A program made the position numbers and the translations under genes. Positions 38,525 through 46,539 of a stretch of 64,000 nt of DNA are shown piece by piece. Every line of letters begins with the position of its first letter. The stretch's first letter is position 1. Location: the NCBI GenBank assembly GCA_944391215.1, contig CALXSR010000052.1:1-64000 (forward strand). Direction: 5' to 3'. The notes beneath the pieces were generated by a model. The model searched no databases. It saw nothing but the letters and a program-made list of their open reading frames with translations, and was not told the origin of the DNA. The DNA comes from an uncultured Clostridia bacterium (GTDB taxonomy: Bacteria > Bacillota > Dehalobacteriia > UBA4068 > CALXSR01).

Positions 38525-39565
38525 CTATTCAAAAAAAATTCGAAAAGCAGTCGGTAAGGAATATTTTTCTTCTAACTCGTCTTTTTTTACCCAAAGCCAG
38601 TTTTCCTCCTTTGCTTCTCCCCTAACCATAATATCATAACTTTGCATATGCCATTCTATATGAGTAAAAACATGCTTTGCTTTTTTCCCTATGAAAAATT
38701 TTTCCACCACCAATCCGATTGTTTCTAAATATTTTACGATTTCTTGCCCCTCTACCAATCCCGTTATGTTTGGAAATTCCCAAAGACCGGCTAACAGACC
38801 TTTTGCTTCTCTTTTGTGAATTGCAATTTTATCTCCCTGATATAATAAAAATACCGTCCTATCTTCTATCCGTCTTGCATTTTTTACTTTTTTCACAGGA
38901 AACGCCAAAACTGTACCTTCGGCATTTGCACGACAAATGGCTTGCAATGGACAATCCGCACAACGTGGCATCCCATTTGGCAAACAAACAGTAGCCCCCA
39001 ATTCCATAAGGGCCTGATTAAAGTCACCGGCTCTCTGTTGTGGGATCATATTTTGTAAAAGCACACGAAAATGCCTTTTTACCACATTAGATAAAATATC
39101 CCCATCATAAGCCAAAAGACGGGCTAAAACACGTAAAACATTACCATCTACCGCCGGGACCGGAATACCATAGGCAATGGATGCAATTGCTCCCGCTGTA
39201 TATTCTCCAATTCCAGGTAAAGATAATAATTGCTCATAGGAAGCTGGCAACTTACCATTAAACTTTAAAATAATTTGCTGCGCAGCTTTTTTTAAATTCC
39301 TAGCTCGGTTATAATAACCAAGCCCTTCCCAAAGTTTTAATAATTTATCCTCTGATAAAGCAGCCAAGGATGCAATATCCGGTGCTTCGGCAAAGAAACG
39401 GTCAAAAAATGGTTTTACCGCCTCTACCCTGGTTTGCTGTAACATAATTTCCGAGAGCCATACACGATAAGGGGTTGGGTATTCCCGCCACGGCAATATT
39501 CGTGCTTTTTTATCATACCAAGCTAATAATGGCGCCACTATTATGGTTAATTCTTGTTCAGTCAT
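38525..39565 (-). CDS. mutY: A/G-specific adenine DNA glycosylase
   Basis: 346-residue base-excision repair enzyme that removes adenine opposite 8-oxoguanine, complementing MutM in this window. The HhH motif is LPGIGEYTAGAIASIAYG, the catalytic Asp is in VDGNVLRVLARL, and four cysteines (CLPNGMPRCADCPLQAIC) bind the 4Fe-4S cluster. The C-terminal NUDIX-like domain senses oxoguanine. The start overlaps the end of the upstream LD-carboxypeptidase gene by 8 bases. Confidence 0.95.
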   Translation of the reverse strand: MTEQELTIIVAPLLAWYDKKARILPWREYPTPYRVWLSEIMLQQTRVEAVKPFFDRFFAEAPDIASLAALSEDKLLKLWEGLGYYNRARNLKKAAQQIILKFNGKLPASYEQLLSLPGIGEYTAGAIASIAYGIPVPAVDGNVLRVLARLLAYDGDILSNVVKRHFRVLLQNMIPQQRAGDFNQALMELGATVCLPNGMPRCADCPLQAICRANAEGTVLAFPVKKVKNARRIEDRTVFLLYQGDKIAIHKREAKGLLAGLWEFPNITGLVEGQEIVKYLETIGLVVEKFFIGKKAKHVFTHIEWHMQSYDIMVRGEAKEENWLWVKKDELEEKYSLPTAFRIFFE

Positions 39566-40466
39566 GCCCTAATGTTTTCTCCTGAAATTTTAAAGTTCCT
39601 TGATCCGCATTCAAAGTGGCCTGTACCCCAATAGGGATAATACCATGATGCGTCCCATGCCCAAAATCATCACATTTAGCCACCGGAATTTGATATCGCT
39701 CCCCGATTCTTTGCAGCATTTGCTCAATTTCTTCATAATAATCTTCCGAATAATGACCAAACAAAAGACCAGTAACTTGTTTCATAAAACCGCTTTGTTC
39801 AATATGCGAAAAATATTTGCTGACCATGGCCGGTTTACTGAACCGGATATGGTCTTCGATAAACAAAATATATTTTTTGCTTTTATCATAGGGAAAATAC
39901 GCTCCATTTAACATAATGGCAAAATTTGCTAAAAACCCGCCTATTGTTTCTCCTTCTGCACTACCTGGGCATATGGTTCGCCATTTGCTACCGGTATCCA
40001 TAAACGGTTTTTCCGCCATCAATCGATTTTCCCATACTTGCATATTATAAGGCACTGGAGAGGTAAAAGCTTTCCAGGTAAAACCATAATAGGTTACCAT
40101 ATGACAATGCGCACTTATCGCATTTAGCAAGGTAGTGGAATCACTATAACTGCAAATAATTTTAGGATTTTCCTGAATCAAATCAAAATCCAAATACGGC
40201 AACATTTCATTACAAACTTCCCCGCCACCAAATAAAAGCATTTTTACTTCTGTATCTGTAATCATTTGATGCAAGTCTGCGGTTCTTTCTTCTGGGGTTG
40301 CCGCAAAACCATAGGTATTTTTAAAAGCATTATCAGCAAACTTTACCTGAAACCCCACTTGTTCCATATTCTTTTTGGCAACTGCAATTTCTTCCTTTGT
40401 TAAGGCAATACAAGGTGCAATAATCCCTATCGTATCTCCTAAGGATAATTTTTGTGGTTTTAGCAT
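39558..40466 (-). CDS. LD-carboxypeptidase / microcin-immunity-like S66 peptidase
   Basis: 302-residue serine peptidase of family S66, which trims the terminal D-Ala from murein tetrapeptides or hydrolyses microcin C-type compounds. Motifs are LSLGDTIGIIAPC at the N-terminus, FGGGEVCNEMLPYLD, the nucleophile region SYSDSTTLLNAI, and the catalytic His region DFGHGTHHGIIPIG. AGAAGGAGG precedes the ATG. Followed by an overlapping mutY gene. LdcA versus MccF function cannot be separated from sequence. Confidence 0.88.
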   Translation of the reverse strand: MLKPQKLSLGDTIGIIAPCIALTKEEIAVAKKNMEQVGFQVKFADNAFKNTYGFAATPEERTADLHQMITDTEVKMLLFGGGEVCNEMLPYLDFDLIQENPKIICSYSDSTTLLNAISAHCHMVTYYGFTWKAFTSPVPYNMQVWENRLMAEKPFMDTGSKWRTICPGSAEGETIGGFLANFAIMLNGAYFPYDKSKKYILFIEDHIRFSKPAMVSKYFSHIEQSGFMKQVTGLLFGHYSEDYYEEIEQMLQRIGERYQIPVAKCDDFGHGTHHGIIPIGVQATLNADQGTLKFQEKTLGHD

Positions 40467-40530: not shown

Positions 40531-41277
40531 TTACGACAAAATACTATCGATAAATTCTTTGATTCTACGGTCTTTGGGATGATCAAAAATATCTTCCTTA
40601 GTGCCCTCCGCAATGATTTCTTTATCACACATAAATAAAATTTTACTGGCTGCCTCTTTGGCGAAGCCCATTTCATGCGTAACTACCACCATTGTCATTT
40701 TTTCTTCGGCCAATTTTTTCATAACGCTTAATACTTCAGACGTTAATTGTGGGTCTAAAGAAGAGGTAGGTTCATCGAATAACAGCATATCTGGATTCAT
40801 CATTAAAGCGCGAGCAATCGCTACTCTTTGTTTTTGGCCCCCCGATAAAGCAGAAGGATAAACATCTGCTTTATCAGATAAACCAACTTCTTGCAAAAGC
40901 TTCTTTGCTCTTTGTATCGCTTGTTCTCGCGGTTCTTTTTTCACACTAACCGGAGCACAAACTAAATTATCCAGAACAGACATATGTGGGAATAAGTTAA
41001 AACTTTGAAAAACCATTCCCATTTTAGCACATATCTGTTGCGCCTTTTTATCTTGCACATAAACGCCGTCTTGCATAAGAAATTCATTTTCTACCATAAT
41101 GTCGCCGGCATCCGCTTTTTCTAGATCAATCAAGCAACGCAACATTGTACTTTTACCGGAACCGGAGGGTCCTATAACCGCTACCGTCTCGCCCTTTTCA
41201 ACAGAAAAAGAAACGCCATCAAGCACTTGCAAATCGCCAAAGCTTTTCTTTAATCCTTTTACTTCTAACATTTTCAT
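40531..41277 (-). CDS. Amino acid ABC transporter ATP-binding protein
   Basis: 248-residue ATPase of the polar amino acid uptake family (GlnQ/ArtP type). Walker [11 protein letters not shown]-loop [17 protein letters not shown], signature [15 protein letters not shown], Walker [14 protein letters not shown]. It is the third gene of an SBP-permease-ATPase operon, 15 bases after the permease. The ribosome site is weak (GGTG); an ATG two codons later is an alternative start. Confidence 0.96.
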
Positions 41278-41292
41278 ATGTATCTACACCAA

Positions 41293-41955
41293 CTAATAAC
41301 TGTATTTTTTTTCCATATAGGCAAAAAACTTTGTTAAAACAAAATTCATTACTAAATAGAAAAGAGCAGCTACCAAATAAGCACTGGCATTTACATCTGC
41401 ATTTACCCTTGCTTTTGCAAAATAAAGAATTTCGGTTACCCCAATGGCTGTAACAAGGGCAGTATCTTTTACCAAGGTAATACTTTCATTGCTAATAGAA
41501 GGTAAAGTAACCCTTAATAACTGCGGTAAAACGATTTTGGTTAGCGTTTGTTTTTTACTTAAGCCCAACACTTTGGCTGCCTCGTATTGCCCTTTATCAA
41601 TAGCCAATAATCCGCCCCGAAATATTTCACAGAAATAAGCGGCATAATTTAATACGAATGCTACCAAAGCCGCTTGCATACGAGAAAGCGTCAACGCTTC
41701 CCGAAACAAAGGGTTATCAGAAATAAGCGCTAAACCATAATAGAAAAAGAACAACTGTAAAAGCAGCGGGGTGCCACGCATAATCCAAACATAAAAACCA
41801 GTAATGGCCTTTACAATTTTAATTTTGCTGGTACGAAAAAAAGTGAGCATTAAGCCCAAAGGCATAGATAATATGATTGTGACAAAGAATATTTCTAAAG
41901 TATATTTAATACCGTCCATCATCAAAAGGGCGATACTAAACAAATAGTTCATCAT
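41293..41955 (-). CDS. Amino acid ABC transporter permease
   Basis: 220-residue inner-membrane permease with five transmembrane helices of the His/Glu/Gln/Arg/opine family. YVWIMRGTPLLLQLFFFYYGLA and the EAA loop YEAAKVLGLSKKQTLTKIVLPQ are diagnostic. It lies between the SBP gene (22 bases upstream) and the ATPase, and presumably works as a homodimer. Confidence 0.95.
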   Translation of the reverse strand: MMNYLFSIALLMMDGIKYTLEIFFVTIILSMPLGLMLTFFRTSKIKIVKAITGFYVWIMRGTPLLLQLFFFYYGLALISDNPLFREALTLSRMQAALVAFVLNYAAYFCEIFRGGLLAIDKGQYEAAKVLGLSKKQTLTKIVLPQLLRVTLPSISNESITLVKDTALVTAIGVTEILYFAKARVNADVNASAYLVAALFYLVMNFVLTKFFAYMEKKYSY

Positions 41956-41977: not shown

Positions 41978-42877
41978 TTATTTTGCGGCACTTCCGTCTT
42001 CAGCAGTTTGCGCATCATTAGTAATAATATATTTACCAACTACTTCATCCACCACAAAAGCATCTACTCGGCCAGCTTTTAAATCCATAAAAGCGGAAAC
42101 ATTTTCCGGATATTCTACAACTTCTTTTACATCTTTGGCAATTTCATTGGCATTTAACGCGTCCAAAGCAGAAGAACCTTTTTGCAAACCAATTACTTTG
42201 TCTTTCAAATCAGCAATCGTTTTAATATCGGAATCTCCAGGTACAATAATAATTTGACGGTTGCCAATATAAGGTTTGGCAATAAACATAGCGGCTAACC
42301 GATCATCATTTACGCTCATCCCATTCCAAATACAATCGATTTTACCGGAATTCAATTCCATTTCTTTTGCGTCCCAATCAATTGGTTGTACTACCAATTC
42401 CACACCCATTCGTTTGGCAACTTCAGTAGCCAAATCAATATCAAAACCAACAATATTATTTTCTTCATCGCGGAAACCCATAGGTGGGAAGCTATCATCC
42501 AAACCTAAAACAAAAGTCTTTTTATCTAAAACATTCTGCAAAGAGTTATCATCTTCCGCGGCTTCCGTTTCTTCATAATATTCGACGTCTTTCAACATTT
42601 TATCTTCGCCGAACCATTTATTGGAAATTTCAGCGGCAGTTCCATCTTCCATCATTGCATCTAACTGCTTTTGCACCTCCAAACCCAAAGCAATGTCACC
42701 GTTTCTAAAGCCAATCGCATAATTTTCCGCCCCAAAATCTTCTTCTAAAACAACAAAAGCAGCTGTTTTTTCAGGTTCTTGCGGATCTACCGGTTTCTTT
42801 TCCCCACAGCCAGTCAAAGCGAAAGCAGCCATCCCAAATACCAAAGTAACACCCAATAATTTAGTCCATTTTTTCAT
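41978..42877 (-). CDS. Amino acid ABC substrate-binding lipoprotein, circularly permuted
   Basis: 299-residue family 3 binding protein with a lipoprotein signal (FALTGC, Cys 24). The domain order is unusual. Residues 41-92 (VVLEEDFGAENYAIGF ... ISNKWFGED) correspond to what normally forms the C-terminal end of these proteins. Residues 112-290 (FVLGLDDSFPPMGF ... AFVVDEVVGKYIIT) correspond to the normal beginning through the second lobe, and the protein stops there. A 19-residue acidic linker joins the two. This is a natural circular permutation, as expected from tandem duplication followed by loss of the outer parts. I chose the ATG at 42877 after AAGGAAGGTG. Operon partners are the permease and ATPase. 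Ligand is probably a polar amino acid. Confidence 0.9.
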   Translation of the reverse strand: MKKWTKLLGVTLVFGMAAFALTGCGEKKPVDPQEPEKTAAFVVLEEDFGAENYAIGFRNGDIALGLEVQKQLDAMMEDGTAAEISNKWFGEDKMLKDVEYYEETEAAEDDNSLQNVLDKKTFVLGLDDSFPPMGFRDEENNIVGFDIDLATEVAKRMGVELVVQPIDWDAKEMELNSGKIDCIWNGMSVNDDRLAAMFIAKPYIGNRQIIIVPGDSDIKTIADLKDKVIGLQKGSSALDALNANEIAKDVKEVVEYPENVSAFMDLKAGRVDAFVVDEVVGKYIITNDAQTAEDGSAAK

Positions 42878-42996: not shown

Positions 42997-43362
42997 TCAT
43001 CTTTGCGGTATAATTTCAATCCAATAGCCATCCGGATCATGAATAAAATAAATTCCCATGGCAGGGTTTTCATAACATATACAATTCATTGCTTCGTGTT
43101 TTTTATGTAATGTTTCATATTCATCGGTTACAAAGGCCAAATGATACTCCAATTCCCCCAAATCATATGGTTTTACCCTCCCTTTTAAATAAGTAAGCTC
43201 AAGTGTAAAATTACTATGCCCATCGCCTAAATAAACCAATTTGAAGGTTTTATTAGCATCTTCTTTTTCCCTTACCACCTGTAAATTTAAGGCTTCTTTA
43301 TAAAAAGCCAAACTTTTTTCCAAATCAATTACATTAAAATTAAAATGATTAAATGTAATCAT
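42997..43362 (-). CDS. Glyoxalase/VOC-family protein (lactoylglutathione lyase-like)
   Basis: 121-residue metalloprotein of the vicinal oxygen chelate fold. FNHFNFNVIDLEKSLAFYKEAL starts the first beta-alpha-beta-beta-beta unit (His ligand), LELTYL carries the first Glu, HLAFVTDEYETLHKKH starts the second unit (His) and YFIHDPDGYWIEIIPQ ends with the last Glu. All four metal ligands are present, so it is probably glyoxalase I removing methylglyoxal or a close relative. Single gene. Confidence 0.85.
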   Translation of the reverse strand: MITFNHFNFNVIDLEKSLAFYKEALNLQVVREKEDANKTFKLVYLGDGHSNFTLELTYLKGRVKPYDLGELEYHLAFVTDEYETLHKKHEAMNCICYENPAMGIYFIHDPDGYWIEIIPQR

Positions 43363-43401
43363 AGTATAATCTCCTTTTTTCTTTATTTTAATTTTTTAAA
43401 C

Positions 43402-43434
43402 CAAAAAGAAAAGGCTATCCAATGGATAGCCTTT
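43402..43434 (-). terminator. Terminator of the amidohydrolase gene
   Basis: Perfect 11-bp stem AAAGGCTATCC/GGATAGCCTTT with a 3-nt loop, followed by TCTTTTT on the minus strand. Confidence 0.9.
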
Positions 43435-43448
43435 CAACCAAACAAACA

Positions 43449-44825
43449 TTAAATAAACTTCCAACCGGTTTCTAACAAATTGCCAGCACCGCTTTCGTCT
43501 ACCATTCTTTTTACAGTTTCTTCGGTTTCATATTTAATTTTTTCTTCGTCAACGGTTAACAATTCTCTGTCCTTCATGACCATTTTCCCATCAACGAACA
43601 CAGTTTGTACAGCATTGCCATTGGTAGAATATACTAAATGGGAAACAAAGCCCAAACTCGGAATCATTTCTGGCCCTTTTGTGGAAACAATAATAACGTC
43701 CGCTTTTTTACCAGCTTCTAAAGAACCAATTTCATCTTCCATATTTAAGCAACGGGCTCCATCAATGGTAGCCATTTCTAAAGCTTTTTGGGCATTCAAA
43801 CAACTAGGATCTAGGCGGCTTGCTCTTTGCATCATAATGGCCATTTTCATAGCGGCAAACATATCCTGATTATTATTGCTGGCAGCGCCATCACAACCAA
43901 TCCCAACTGTTACACCAGCTGCCAACATTTCCGGAATCGGCGCAATTCCATCAGCCAAATATGGATTGGATACCGCATTATGCGCTACTTTGGTATCGGT
44001 TACCTTTAACAATTCAATTTCTTTCCGGCTTACCCATACGCAATGAGCGAGTAAAACATCAGGGCCGAGAATATTATTGTCATATAAATACTCAATAGTA
44101 GACATTCCCGTTTTTTTACGTAAATTTTCTACCCTTTGGGCAATTTCGGCCGCATGCATATTCATACCAACATGATATTTACGAGAAACTTCCCGCATTG
44201 CTAACAGCATTTCTTTTGAGGAAAGCGCTTCAGACATCGGTTCTACCCGCACGGAAATACGACCATTGGCTTTGCCGTGGTATTCCTTAATAATTCTTTC
44301 ACATTCTTTATAAGCCGTGTCCGGATCTTCATGGAAACATTCCGGTACCGGAGCCTGGTTTACGGCAGCCCGACCAATAATACCCCGAATACCAATTTCT
44401 TCAATCGCTTCTGCAATCCCATCATTACAATATTTATCAATATTGATATAGTGACAATCATCAAAAACTGTCGTACCTGTTTTAATCATTTCTACCGTAT
44501 TCATCAAAGCAGCGGTTTTGGCTTCTTTGCGGAACAATCTTTTCGAAATAGGATAAATCGATTTAAAAATCCAATCTGTTAAGTCCAAATCCACCCCAAT
44601 GCCCCGCATTAAAACTTGAAACAAATGTGCGTGAACATCTATCAAACCAGGCATCACAATATCATCTTTCGCATCCAATTGTTCTGCATTTGGATATTTC
44701 TTTTTTAATTCTTCCGTTTTGCCAACTTCTTTAATCCGATCTCCATCGATTAAAACAGCTCCATCCCGTATTACCCGTCTTTCCGGATCCATCGTAATAA
44801 CGCGACCATTGGTAATTAGTAGCAT
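43449..44825 (-). CDS. Amidohydrolase, MtaD/SsnA-like (S-adenosylhomocysteine / aminohydrolase family)
   Basis: 458-residue metal-dependent hydrolase of the cytosine-deaminase-like group. The metal ligands are in DVHAHLFQVLMRG, NMHAAEI, AHCVWV and GCDGAASNNNQDMF. The C-terminal GSLEAGKKADVIIV closes the composite sandwich domain. Possible reactions are deamination of S-adenosylhomocysteine, methylthioadenosine or guanine, or an SsnA-like role in purine/selenium metabolism. The upstream PucR-type regulator points towards purine or related nitrogen metabolism, but that is inference. GAGGTG precedes the ATG; a TATAAT element lies at 44912-44917. Confidence 0.85.
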   Translation of the reverse strand: MLLITNGRVITMDPERRVIRDGAVLIDGDRIKEVGKTEELKKKYPNAEQLDAKDDIVMPGLIDVHAHLFQVLMRGIGVDLDLTDWIFKSIYPISKRLFRKEAKTAALMNTVEMIKTGTTVFDDCHYINIDKYCNDGIAEAIEEIGIRGIIGRAAVNQAPVPECFHEDPDTAYKECERIIKEYHGKANGRISVRVEPMSEALSSKEMLLAMREVSRKYHVGMNMHAAEIAQRVENLRKKTGMSTIEYLYDNNILGPDVLLAHCVWVSRKEIELLKVTDTKVAHNAVSNPYLADGIAPIPEMLAAGVTVGIGCDGAASNNNQDMFAAMKMAIMMQRASRLDPSCLNAQKALEMATIDGARCLNMEDEIGSLEAGKKADVIIVSTKGPEMIPSLGFVSHLVYSTNGNAVQTVFVDGKMVMKDRELLTVDEEKIKYETEETVKRMVDESGAGNLLETGWKFI

Positions 44826-44967
44826 AAAAGATACACCTCTTCTTTCTTACTTTTAACCATCGTCTTACAACTATATCATATTGAGAAATCCCTATTCCAG
44901 TCAATGTACTCATTATACAAAAAAACTTTTCTTTTTTGTCTTTTACAAACAACGAACGAAGTTTTTA

Positions 44968-46539
44968 TTACACTTTTGGGAAAAGAGCCATTAGTTTTAG
45001 GGCCAAAGCAAGTTGTAATCTATTTTCATTATCATGAAAATCAAGCTGTAATAATTCTCCTATTTTATTATAACGATATTTTGCCGTATTATAATGAATA
45101 AACAATTCTTTGGCTGTTTCTTTCAAATTCCAATCATTTTTCAATAAGGTTTCTAACATGGGCAATAAATTACCGCCATTTTTTTTATCATACTCTTGTA
45201 ATGGAGCAATATAGGTCGATAACAGCTCTTTGGCTGCTTCTGTTTCACTTACCGGCGCCAATAATTTATATAATCCTAGCTTTTCATAAAAAGCAATCTG
45301 CAATCGCATTTTATTTCCAATCGCCAAAGCTTTTTGCGCTTCTTGATAACTTTGATACGCATAAAGTAAGGAACTTTGATAAGAACCCACACCAACCATC
45401 AAAGTAACATGGTAATCTTTTTCCATACTTTGACATACTTTTTGGCATTGTGCTTGTAATTGTTCGTAAAAAGCATTTGTTATTGGACATGGCGGTTCTA
45501 TTAAAAACACAATACGCCTCGTAAAATTGGTATAAACTGCATTTGAATAACTTTGTAACAGCTGTTTTCTAATTGTATAAAATAAGTCATAGATACGACT
45601 TTGATCAACTAACTGCTTATCATCGGCAATTTCAAATAATACAACCAAAGCTCCATTTTTCATATTCCACTCATAAAGAGCCTCTTTGGCTTTAATTTGC
45701 TCGATAGAAGTAAAATTATGCAAAAGCAAGTCCTGTATGAACTCATCCCGATATTTACTTTCTACCTGCCGCCGAGTAATTAATTTTTGGATATCCAATT
45801 TCAGTACCGTCATGGCATGTTCTATGGCAATTTCCTCAAAGCGTGTTAGGGTATGCCCTTGCAATATAATTAAATAACCGTAAATGCGATGATCCATTTT
45901 TAAAATATAATACTTTTGTTCTTGTAGCAAAGTAGTCAAATCATCTTCCTGGTAAACAGGACCAGAACCAGTCTGATAGAAATGCGCAAAATATTGATTG
46001 TAAAAAATGATATCTTTTTGAATCATCCGCGCTAATGTATCTAAAATTTCTTGAGCCGTTGCCCCACGCAAAACCAATTCTGTAAAAGATTGATGGATTT
46101 GTTCAGAAAATTGTAATTGAATGACTTGTCGATTGATAATTTCCTCAAAAACAGGTTTAATAATATCAACAAAGGCAAAATTAGGCGGCATAACTAGAAT
46201 GGGAAAATTTAACCGATCCGCAGTTGCCAACACCTCTTGTGGTAAAACCCGAATAAAACGGTCTAATTTCACAATAAGCGCCGCCGCCGGTACTTTTGCC
46301 AACCGCTCTATAATATCTTTTAGCATCAAAGGTTCATTACGCATGATATAAGTATTGCTTAACAGTAATTCTCCGCCTTTAAAAAAAGCGTCATTATCTG
46401 GTCCGTCAATCACATTAACGCAACTGATTATTCTCCCGCAACCATTTTTACCGGCTAATACTTCAAAGCCGGCAAAACGTGGCATTTGCAGAAAATCAGC
46501 AACCGTAAAAACCTCTTTTTGTTTTTCTATTTCAGCCAT
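44968..46539 (-). CDS. PucR-family transcriptional regulator
   Basis: 523-residue regulator. The N-terminal PucR domain (FTVADFLQMPRFAGFEVLAG ... GGELLLSNTYIM) senses a metabolite. A central GGDEF-like CdaR region follows. The C-terminal helix-turn-helix reads LLKNDWNLKETAKELFIHYNTAKYRYNKIGELL. PucR-type activators control purine and amino acid catabolism, and the amidohydrolase directly downstream is the likely target. TAGGAG precedes the ATG. It is 14 bases after the small membrane protein gene, so the two may share a transcript. Confidence 0.9.
   Translation of the reverse strand: MAEIEKQKEVFTVADFLQMPRFAGFEVLAGKNGCGRIISCVNVIDGPDNDAFFKGGELLLSNTYIMRNEPLMLKDIIERLAKVPAAALIVKLDRFIRVLPQEVLATADRLNFPILVMPPNFAFVDIIKPVFEEIINRQVIQLQFSEQIHQSFTELVLRGATAQEILDTLARMIQKDIIFYNQYFAHFYQTGSGPVYQEDDLTTLLQEQKYYILKMDHRIYGYLIILQGHTLTRFEEIAIEHAMTVLKLDIQKLITRRQVESKYRDEFIQDLLLHNFTSIEQIKAKEALYEWNMKNGALVVLFEIADDKQLVDQSRIYDLFYTIRKQLLQSYSNAVYTNFTRRIVFLIEPPCPITNAFYEQLQAQCQKVCQSMEKDYHVTLMVGVGSYQSSLLYAYQSYQEAQKALAIGNKMRLQIAFYEKLGLYKLLAPVSETEAAKELLSTYIAPLQEYDKKNGGNLLPMLETLLKNDWNLKETAKELFIHYNTAKYRYNKIGELLQLDFHDNENRLQLALALKLMALFPKV

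Follow-up and report, generated by a model that had tools for sequence, protein, structure and literature searches.

The window, i.e. the whole stretch of 64,000 nucleotides that was analysed, derives from an uncultured Clostridia bacterium (contig CALXSR010000052.1) and harbors on its minus strand the genes of an ABC importer, in which the gene for a family 3 binding lipoprotein is directly followed by those for a permease and then an ATPase, the operon context expected of the SBP_bac_3 family (Table 1). The reverse complement of the first interval in Table 1 reads as an open frame of 299 codons with a stop codon. The putative bacterial lipobox, LTGC at residues 21-24, would provide the cysteine for lipid attachment, and a lipobox is retained in permuted relatives whose N-terminus is complete. 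Permease and ATPase are both intact, as the preliminary description of this DNA had stated. Their nearest named families, none of which reaches its curated cut-off, include importers of cystine, glutamine, arginine and ectoine, so that by sequence a polar amino acid is the probable ligand.

Table 1. Features of the importer locus, in positions of the window
Feature	Position	Strand	Basis
Permuted family 3 (SBP_bac_3) amino-acid ABC binding lipoprotein, 299 aa	41978..42877	minus	Pfam, PDB phmmer, custom HMM
Lipoprotein signal peptide and putative lipobox, residues 1-24 (LTGC, Cys24)	42806..42877	minus	Sequence
Moved segment, residues 37-92 (canonical C-terminal part; FVVLEEDFG...KWFGED)	42602..42769	minus	Profile 173-228 of 228
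Linker from old C-terminus to old N-terminus, residues 93-117, acidic	42527..42601	minus	Low-homology gap between both profile matches
Canonical N-terminal and middle part, residues 118-290	42008..42526	minus	Profile 2-175 of 228
New C-terminal tail beyond the cut, residues 291-299	41981..42007	minus	Profile end; pLDDT <50 for 295-299
ABC permease, 220 aa, PF00528, polar amino acid type	41293..41955	minus	59-67% identical to permeases of permuted relatives in the clade
ABC ATPase, 248 aa, PF00005, GlnQ/TcyN-like	40531..41277	minus	55-72% identical to ATPases of permuted relatives in the clade

Upstream of the binding-protein gene, at 42997-46539, lie an amidohydrolase (deaminase-like) gene and a PucR-type regulator gene with a glyoxalase-like gene between them, which makes a tie to nitrogen or purine metabolism possible. 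On the other side, at 38525-40466, a gene resembling S66 LD-carboxypeptidases directly follows the transporter ATPase and overlaps the next gene, which is MutY-like by eye.

Rotated order of the binding protein

The window protein matches SBP_bac_3 (PF00497) at 118 bits, with a gathering cut-off of 26.4, yet the collinear order of this family is violated, as two stretches are matched in swapped order, profile positions 97-132 upstream of 2-107. The same swap is seen with phmmer against the PDB, where the best structure, 3hv1, is matched twice (query 113-286 to chain 14-191, query 43-98 to chain 201-256). A custom HMM of 228 positions, derived from 116 unpermuted relatives, matches the native chain twice, first with 57 bits (profile 173-228) and then with 248 bits (2-175), whereas it matches the rotated chain once, with 310 bits over profile 2-228. 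One full-length match upon rotation means that no part has been lost or duplicated at the cut and that the rotation is seamless; as in a natural permutant, both halves are homologous to one parent and their order is swapped. Judged by homology, the protein is a member of SBP_bac_3 with a permuted topology. It had been claimed previously that the segment that normally ends these proteins comes first after the lipobox, that the normal beginning comes second, and that the chain ends where the moved piece would have begun; all of this agrees with the profile matches and their fusion upon rotation. The limits given there for the gene, its segments and the acidic linker are off by no more than a few residues. 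With the 228-position HMM, no second copy of the moved segment was detected in the window protein, neither at the C-terminus, as an added domain would have it, nor elsewhere.

The moved segment comprises the last strand of lobe 2 and the C-terminal part of lobe 1, while residues 118-290 supply the initial part of lobe 1 together with almost the whole of lobe 2. The latter stretch carries conserved motifs that are expected at the ligand site and are putatively assigned to it by sequence, namely FPPMGF (130-135), NDDR with Arg193 and VVDEVV with Asp277; by analogy with LAO, the Arg193 and Asp277 motifs presumably contact the α-carboxylate and the α-amino group of the ligand. We take the cut to lie in a loop of lobe 2 that immediately precedes the last strand of this lobe, which in the GlnBP/LAO-type topology leads back via the second hinge, and a cut within this loop would place both new ends, and hence the lipid anchor, on lobe 2.

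An AlphaFold2 prediction of the window protein, run with 16 permuted sequences, reached a mean pLDDT of 86.6 and a pTM of 0.80, with 230 residues, both segments included, at a pLDDT of at least 90 and most of residues 41-290 above 90; low confidence is confined to the signal region and the last residues. Foldseek aligned part of the chain to arginine-bound TmArgBP (6ggv) with a TMt of 0.71 and an rmsd of 2.5, as compared with 0.45 and 7.3 for the apo form (4prs_A), and, since Foldseek aligns in chain order, these values leave the moved segment unscored. As far as the larger segment goes, the predicted model thus resembles the closed form, and the confidence scores together with the secondary structure suggest that the moved segment may pack into a closed two-lobe structure.

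A permuted clade and a tandem duplicate in its sister group

In a search of genome contigs, nine loci were found to share the order of the window protein (L032-L040), and about 70 are canonical. A further candidate, L176, with a match beginning at query residue 71, turned out to be canonical. In a careful tree of 62 rows, for which sequences were rotated to canonical order and long branches were removed, the window protein forms an all-permuted clade of 11 with L032-L038, L135, L163 and L171 (support 99/92), adjoined by a canonical group of L041, L174, L179 and L181 (93/85). The same clade (94), placed with the same canonical group (100), is recovered in a tree of the adjacent permeases, whose sequences are unaffected by the rotation. 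The ten other members of the clade are 42-65% identical to the window protein over the full length, have the same cut and carry the linker in the same place. The simplest reading is that a single permutation occurred in the ancestor of the eleven-member clade. Two of the members, L163:3208-4095 and L135:1522-2361, are diverged permuted paralogues from one genome, with no permease found near the L163 copy, and at L165:1911-5326 a canonical binding-protein operon is directly followed by a diverged permuted binding-protein gene.

The ten relatives come from independent genomes, and with the absence of a second segment copy they rule out an added domain and bear out the natural circular permutation that had been proposed for this gene. 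They also refute the reading that the order is an artefact of mis-assembly or of a chimeric contig around position 42580: the source genome is a 53-contig draft and most of the relatives are metagenome assemblies, but ten independent instances of the same order, cut and linker place leave this reading with a practically negligible probability. That the permuted gene is decaying or has lost its function might be argued from the permuted relative L039, which has an in-frame stop codon, and from the stretches read for L040, L138, L160, L163 and L166, in which no permease was found. Most permuted loci, however, have the permease and ATPase adjacent, and the window gene itself has an open frame, a lipobox, conserved ligand-site motifs, an intact operon and a whole-length identity of 55-65% with seven close relatives, so that a relic is highly improbable. 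In L039 (5601-6600) the stop is a TAG at a sense codon of the relatives, which could reflect an error, readthrough or decay.

Within the window's own order and class, only canonical homologues and no permuted ones were found in 35 and 43 genomes, respectively, which would fit a horizontal gain of the operon or a loss elsewhere. In an even sample of the phylum (399 genomes), no other protein with the cut of the window protein was present among the matches listed, and hence this form is rare there.

The phylum survey identified a gene, L236:2088-3638 (minus strand, genome G952), that encodes a lipoprotein of 516 aa, in which two complete family 3 domains share one frame and are connected by a short linker without a second signal peptide, and that again precedes a permease and an ATPase. 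The two halves are 80% identical at the protein level, with DNA copies spaced 693-696 bp apart, and both are placed within the group sister to the permuted clade (95/84). The architecture of the window protein would result if the first copy lost its front and the second its back. As the halves pair together at 100/100, L236 represents a parallel duplication that shows a viable step, rather than the ancestor itself; the search for an ancestor proposed in the preliminary description has returned a duplicated form and unpermuted relatives, but no direct ancestor. Between the L236 gene and its permease lie non-coding repeats with a spacing of 350 nt, suggesting that the locus is prone to duplication. 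At L237:2381-4000, two separate canonical binding-protein genes stand in tandem before one permease and ATPase. Two long frames considered as fused duplicates, L093 and L188 (554 and 585 aa), contain one binding-protein domain each.

The linkers are informative as well, as that of L039 begins like a canonical C-terminal tail (ITTIP) and continues like a mature N-terminal spacer (DTSAER), by comparison with the unpermuted L142 and L144. Linker halves that resemble tail and spacer support a route by duplication and truncation, which had been suggested for the window gene before and which the in-frame duplicate in the sister group now backs. Around the window gene, a search for remnants of a duplicated copy returned short chance repeats only. 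Alternatively, pieces of two different binding-protein genes could have recombined and given the rotated order by chance, since paralogous binding proteins occur in these genomes and the moved segment is so short that its own ancestry is poorly resolved, with L194 and L195 scoring about as well as the L041/L174-L180 group. This is quite unlikely, given that the nearest unpermuted relatives of both segments overlap in the L041/L174-L180 group, that the cut involves neither loss nor doubling, and that tandem self-duplication is known in the sister group.

Recurrence across the family

Permutation is recurrent across the family and extends beyond this one gene, which had not been envisaged in the preliminary description. 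Relatives of other permuted genomes were sampled and their segment order was classed by profiles, resulting in a tree set of 38 distinct permuted and 116 canonical proteins. The cut of the window protein (site I) is shared by 23 of the 38, while 15 are cut in the middle of lobe 2, either between the QVVVV and AVEAGSAGE strands (site IIa, n=12) or just past the AVEAGSAGE element (site IIb, n=3). Rotation merges the two profile matches into one in all 38 except L039, which has the in-frame stop. Cuts in mid-lobe 2 were observed at L167, L168 and L198, and at L169, L200, L201, L203, L205-L211 and L130; for L203, a site II protein, a confident fold is likewise predicted (pLDDT 86.6, pTM 0.78). There are thus about three cut sites among the 38 proteins, all in lobe 2, a restriction that is suggestive but not proven, as the search is blind to cuts near the ends of lobe 1.

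On the quick tree of 154 rows, 17 changes of the order label are required, with nine or more forced by the starred branches, and on the permease tree, where permuted rows are scattered, 14 are required, with six or more forced; such counts mix gains and losses, but most changes are likely gains, given how nearly universal the canonical order is in the family. For site I alone, six changes are required on the careful 62-row tree. A single permutation for all permuted forms, followed by repeated reversion to the canonical order, would draw on the fact that tree counts do not distinguish gain from loss. It is nevertheless very unlikely, as site I as a single clade is rejected (p-AU 1.6e-5) and united in 0 of 200 bootstrap trees, as is holding the window clade together with the L039/L136/L138 group (p-AU 3.3e-8), and as the cut sites differ in a family with a near universal canonical order.

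With high confidence, we regard the window protein as a lipid-anchored working subunit of an ABC importer that is permuted but has the ordinary fold. It would adopt the two-lobe structure of family 3 and hold a small polar amino acid between its lobes, to be passed on to the neighbouring permease, with the chain ends and the lipid anchor leaving lobe 2 instead of lobe 1. The permutation would have arisen by internal tandem duplication of the domain behind a single signal peptide, after which the first copy would have lost its front and the second its back. This would have happened once in the ancestor of the eleven-member clade and independently elsewhere in the family. A broader reading is put forward tentatively, at a confidence just short of even, namely that the family 3 lipoproteins of Clostridia and relatives are a hot spot of permutation, with at least five events at about three lobe 2 cuts, the anchor transferred from lobe 1 to lobe 2, a surviving tandem-duplicate route and a benefit from anchoring by the other lobe; if this is true, it is that benefit which the recurrence reflects.

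Relation to known binding proteins

Natural permutations are usually taken to be single and ancient events that are recognised only by structure. Here, one family contains permuted and unpermuted members that are up to ~60% identical, several independent events with different cuts and a live intermediate, so that the duplication-truncation model, as well as the cost or benefit of shifting chain ends and membrane anchor, becomes directly testable. Standard family profiles split or truncate permuted genes, and annotation will therefore miss or misread them. A literature search in open PMC papers returned no report of circular permutation in family 3 or other amino-acid ABC binding proteins.

The window protein has predicted spatial residues, motifs and operon partners in common with the canonical family 3 binding proteins (PF00497: GlnH, ArgT/LAO, ArtJ, TmArgBP, 3hv1) and is a predicted lipoprotein like those of Gram-positives, but differs from them in its rotated order, the presumed placement of its ends and anchor on lobe 2 and an extra linker of ~25 residues. 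The tandem substrate-binding domains of the GlnPQ type (6h30) resemble L236 in having two binding domains per chain; unlike L236, they are fused to the permease, and they are not known to be permuted.

Permuted binding proteins are already known as a kind. TpMglB-2 (Tp0684) from Treponema pallidum, a glucose-binding lipoprotein with a permuted type I fold ("Type Ic"), binds its ligand and changes shape; it has homologues in treponemes and Gram-positives, and its authors proposed that tethering may favour the new topology (PMC4990184). It shares with the window protein that both are naturally permuted, lipid-tethered ABC binding proteins, but TpMglB-2 has a type I fold, a sugar ligand, remote unpermuted relatives and one topological class, with no duplication intermediate described (PMC4990184), whereas the matches of the window protein are family 3 amino-acid binding proteins of type II, which places it outside "Type Ic". 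The glycine betaine-binding proteins (OpuAC, ProX) were found by CPSARST to be permuted relative to molybdate-binding proteins (PMC2395249); these, too, are permuted two-lobe proteins, but that permutation is ancient, with <24% identity and detection by structure only (PMC2395249). What is unusual in the present family is the recurrence of permutation together with a surviving intermediate.
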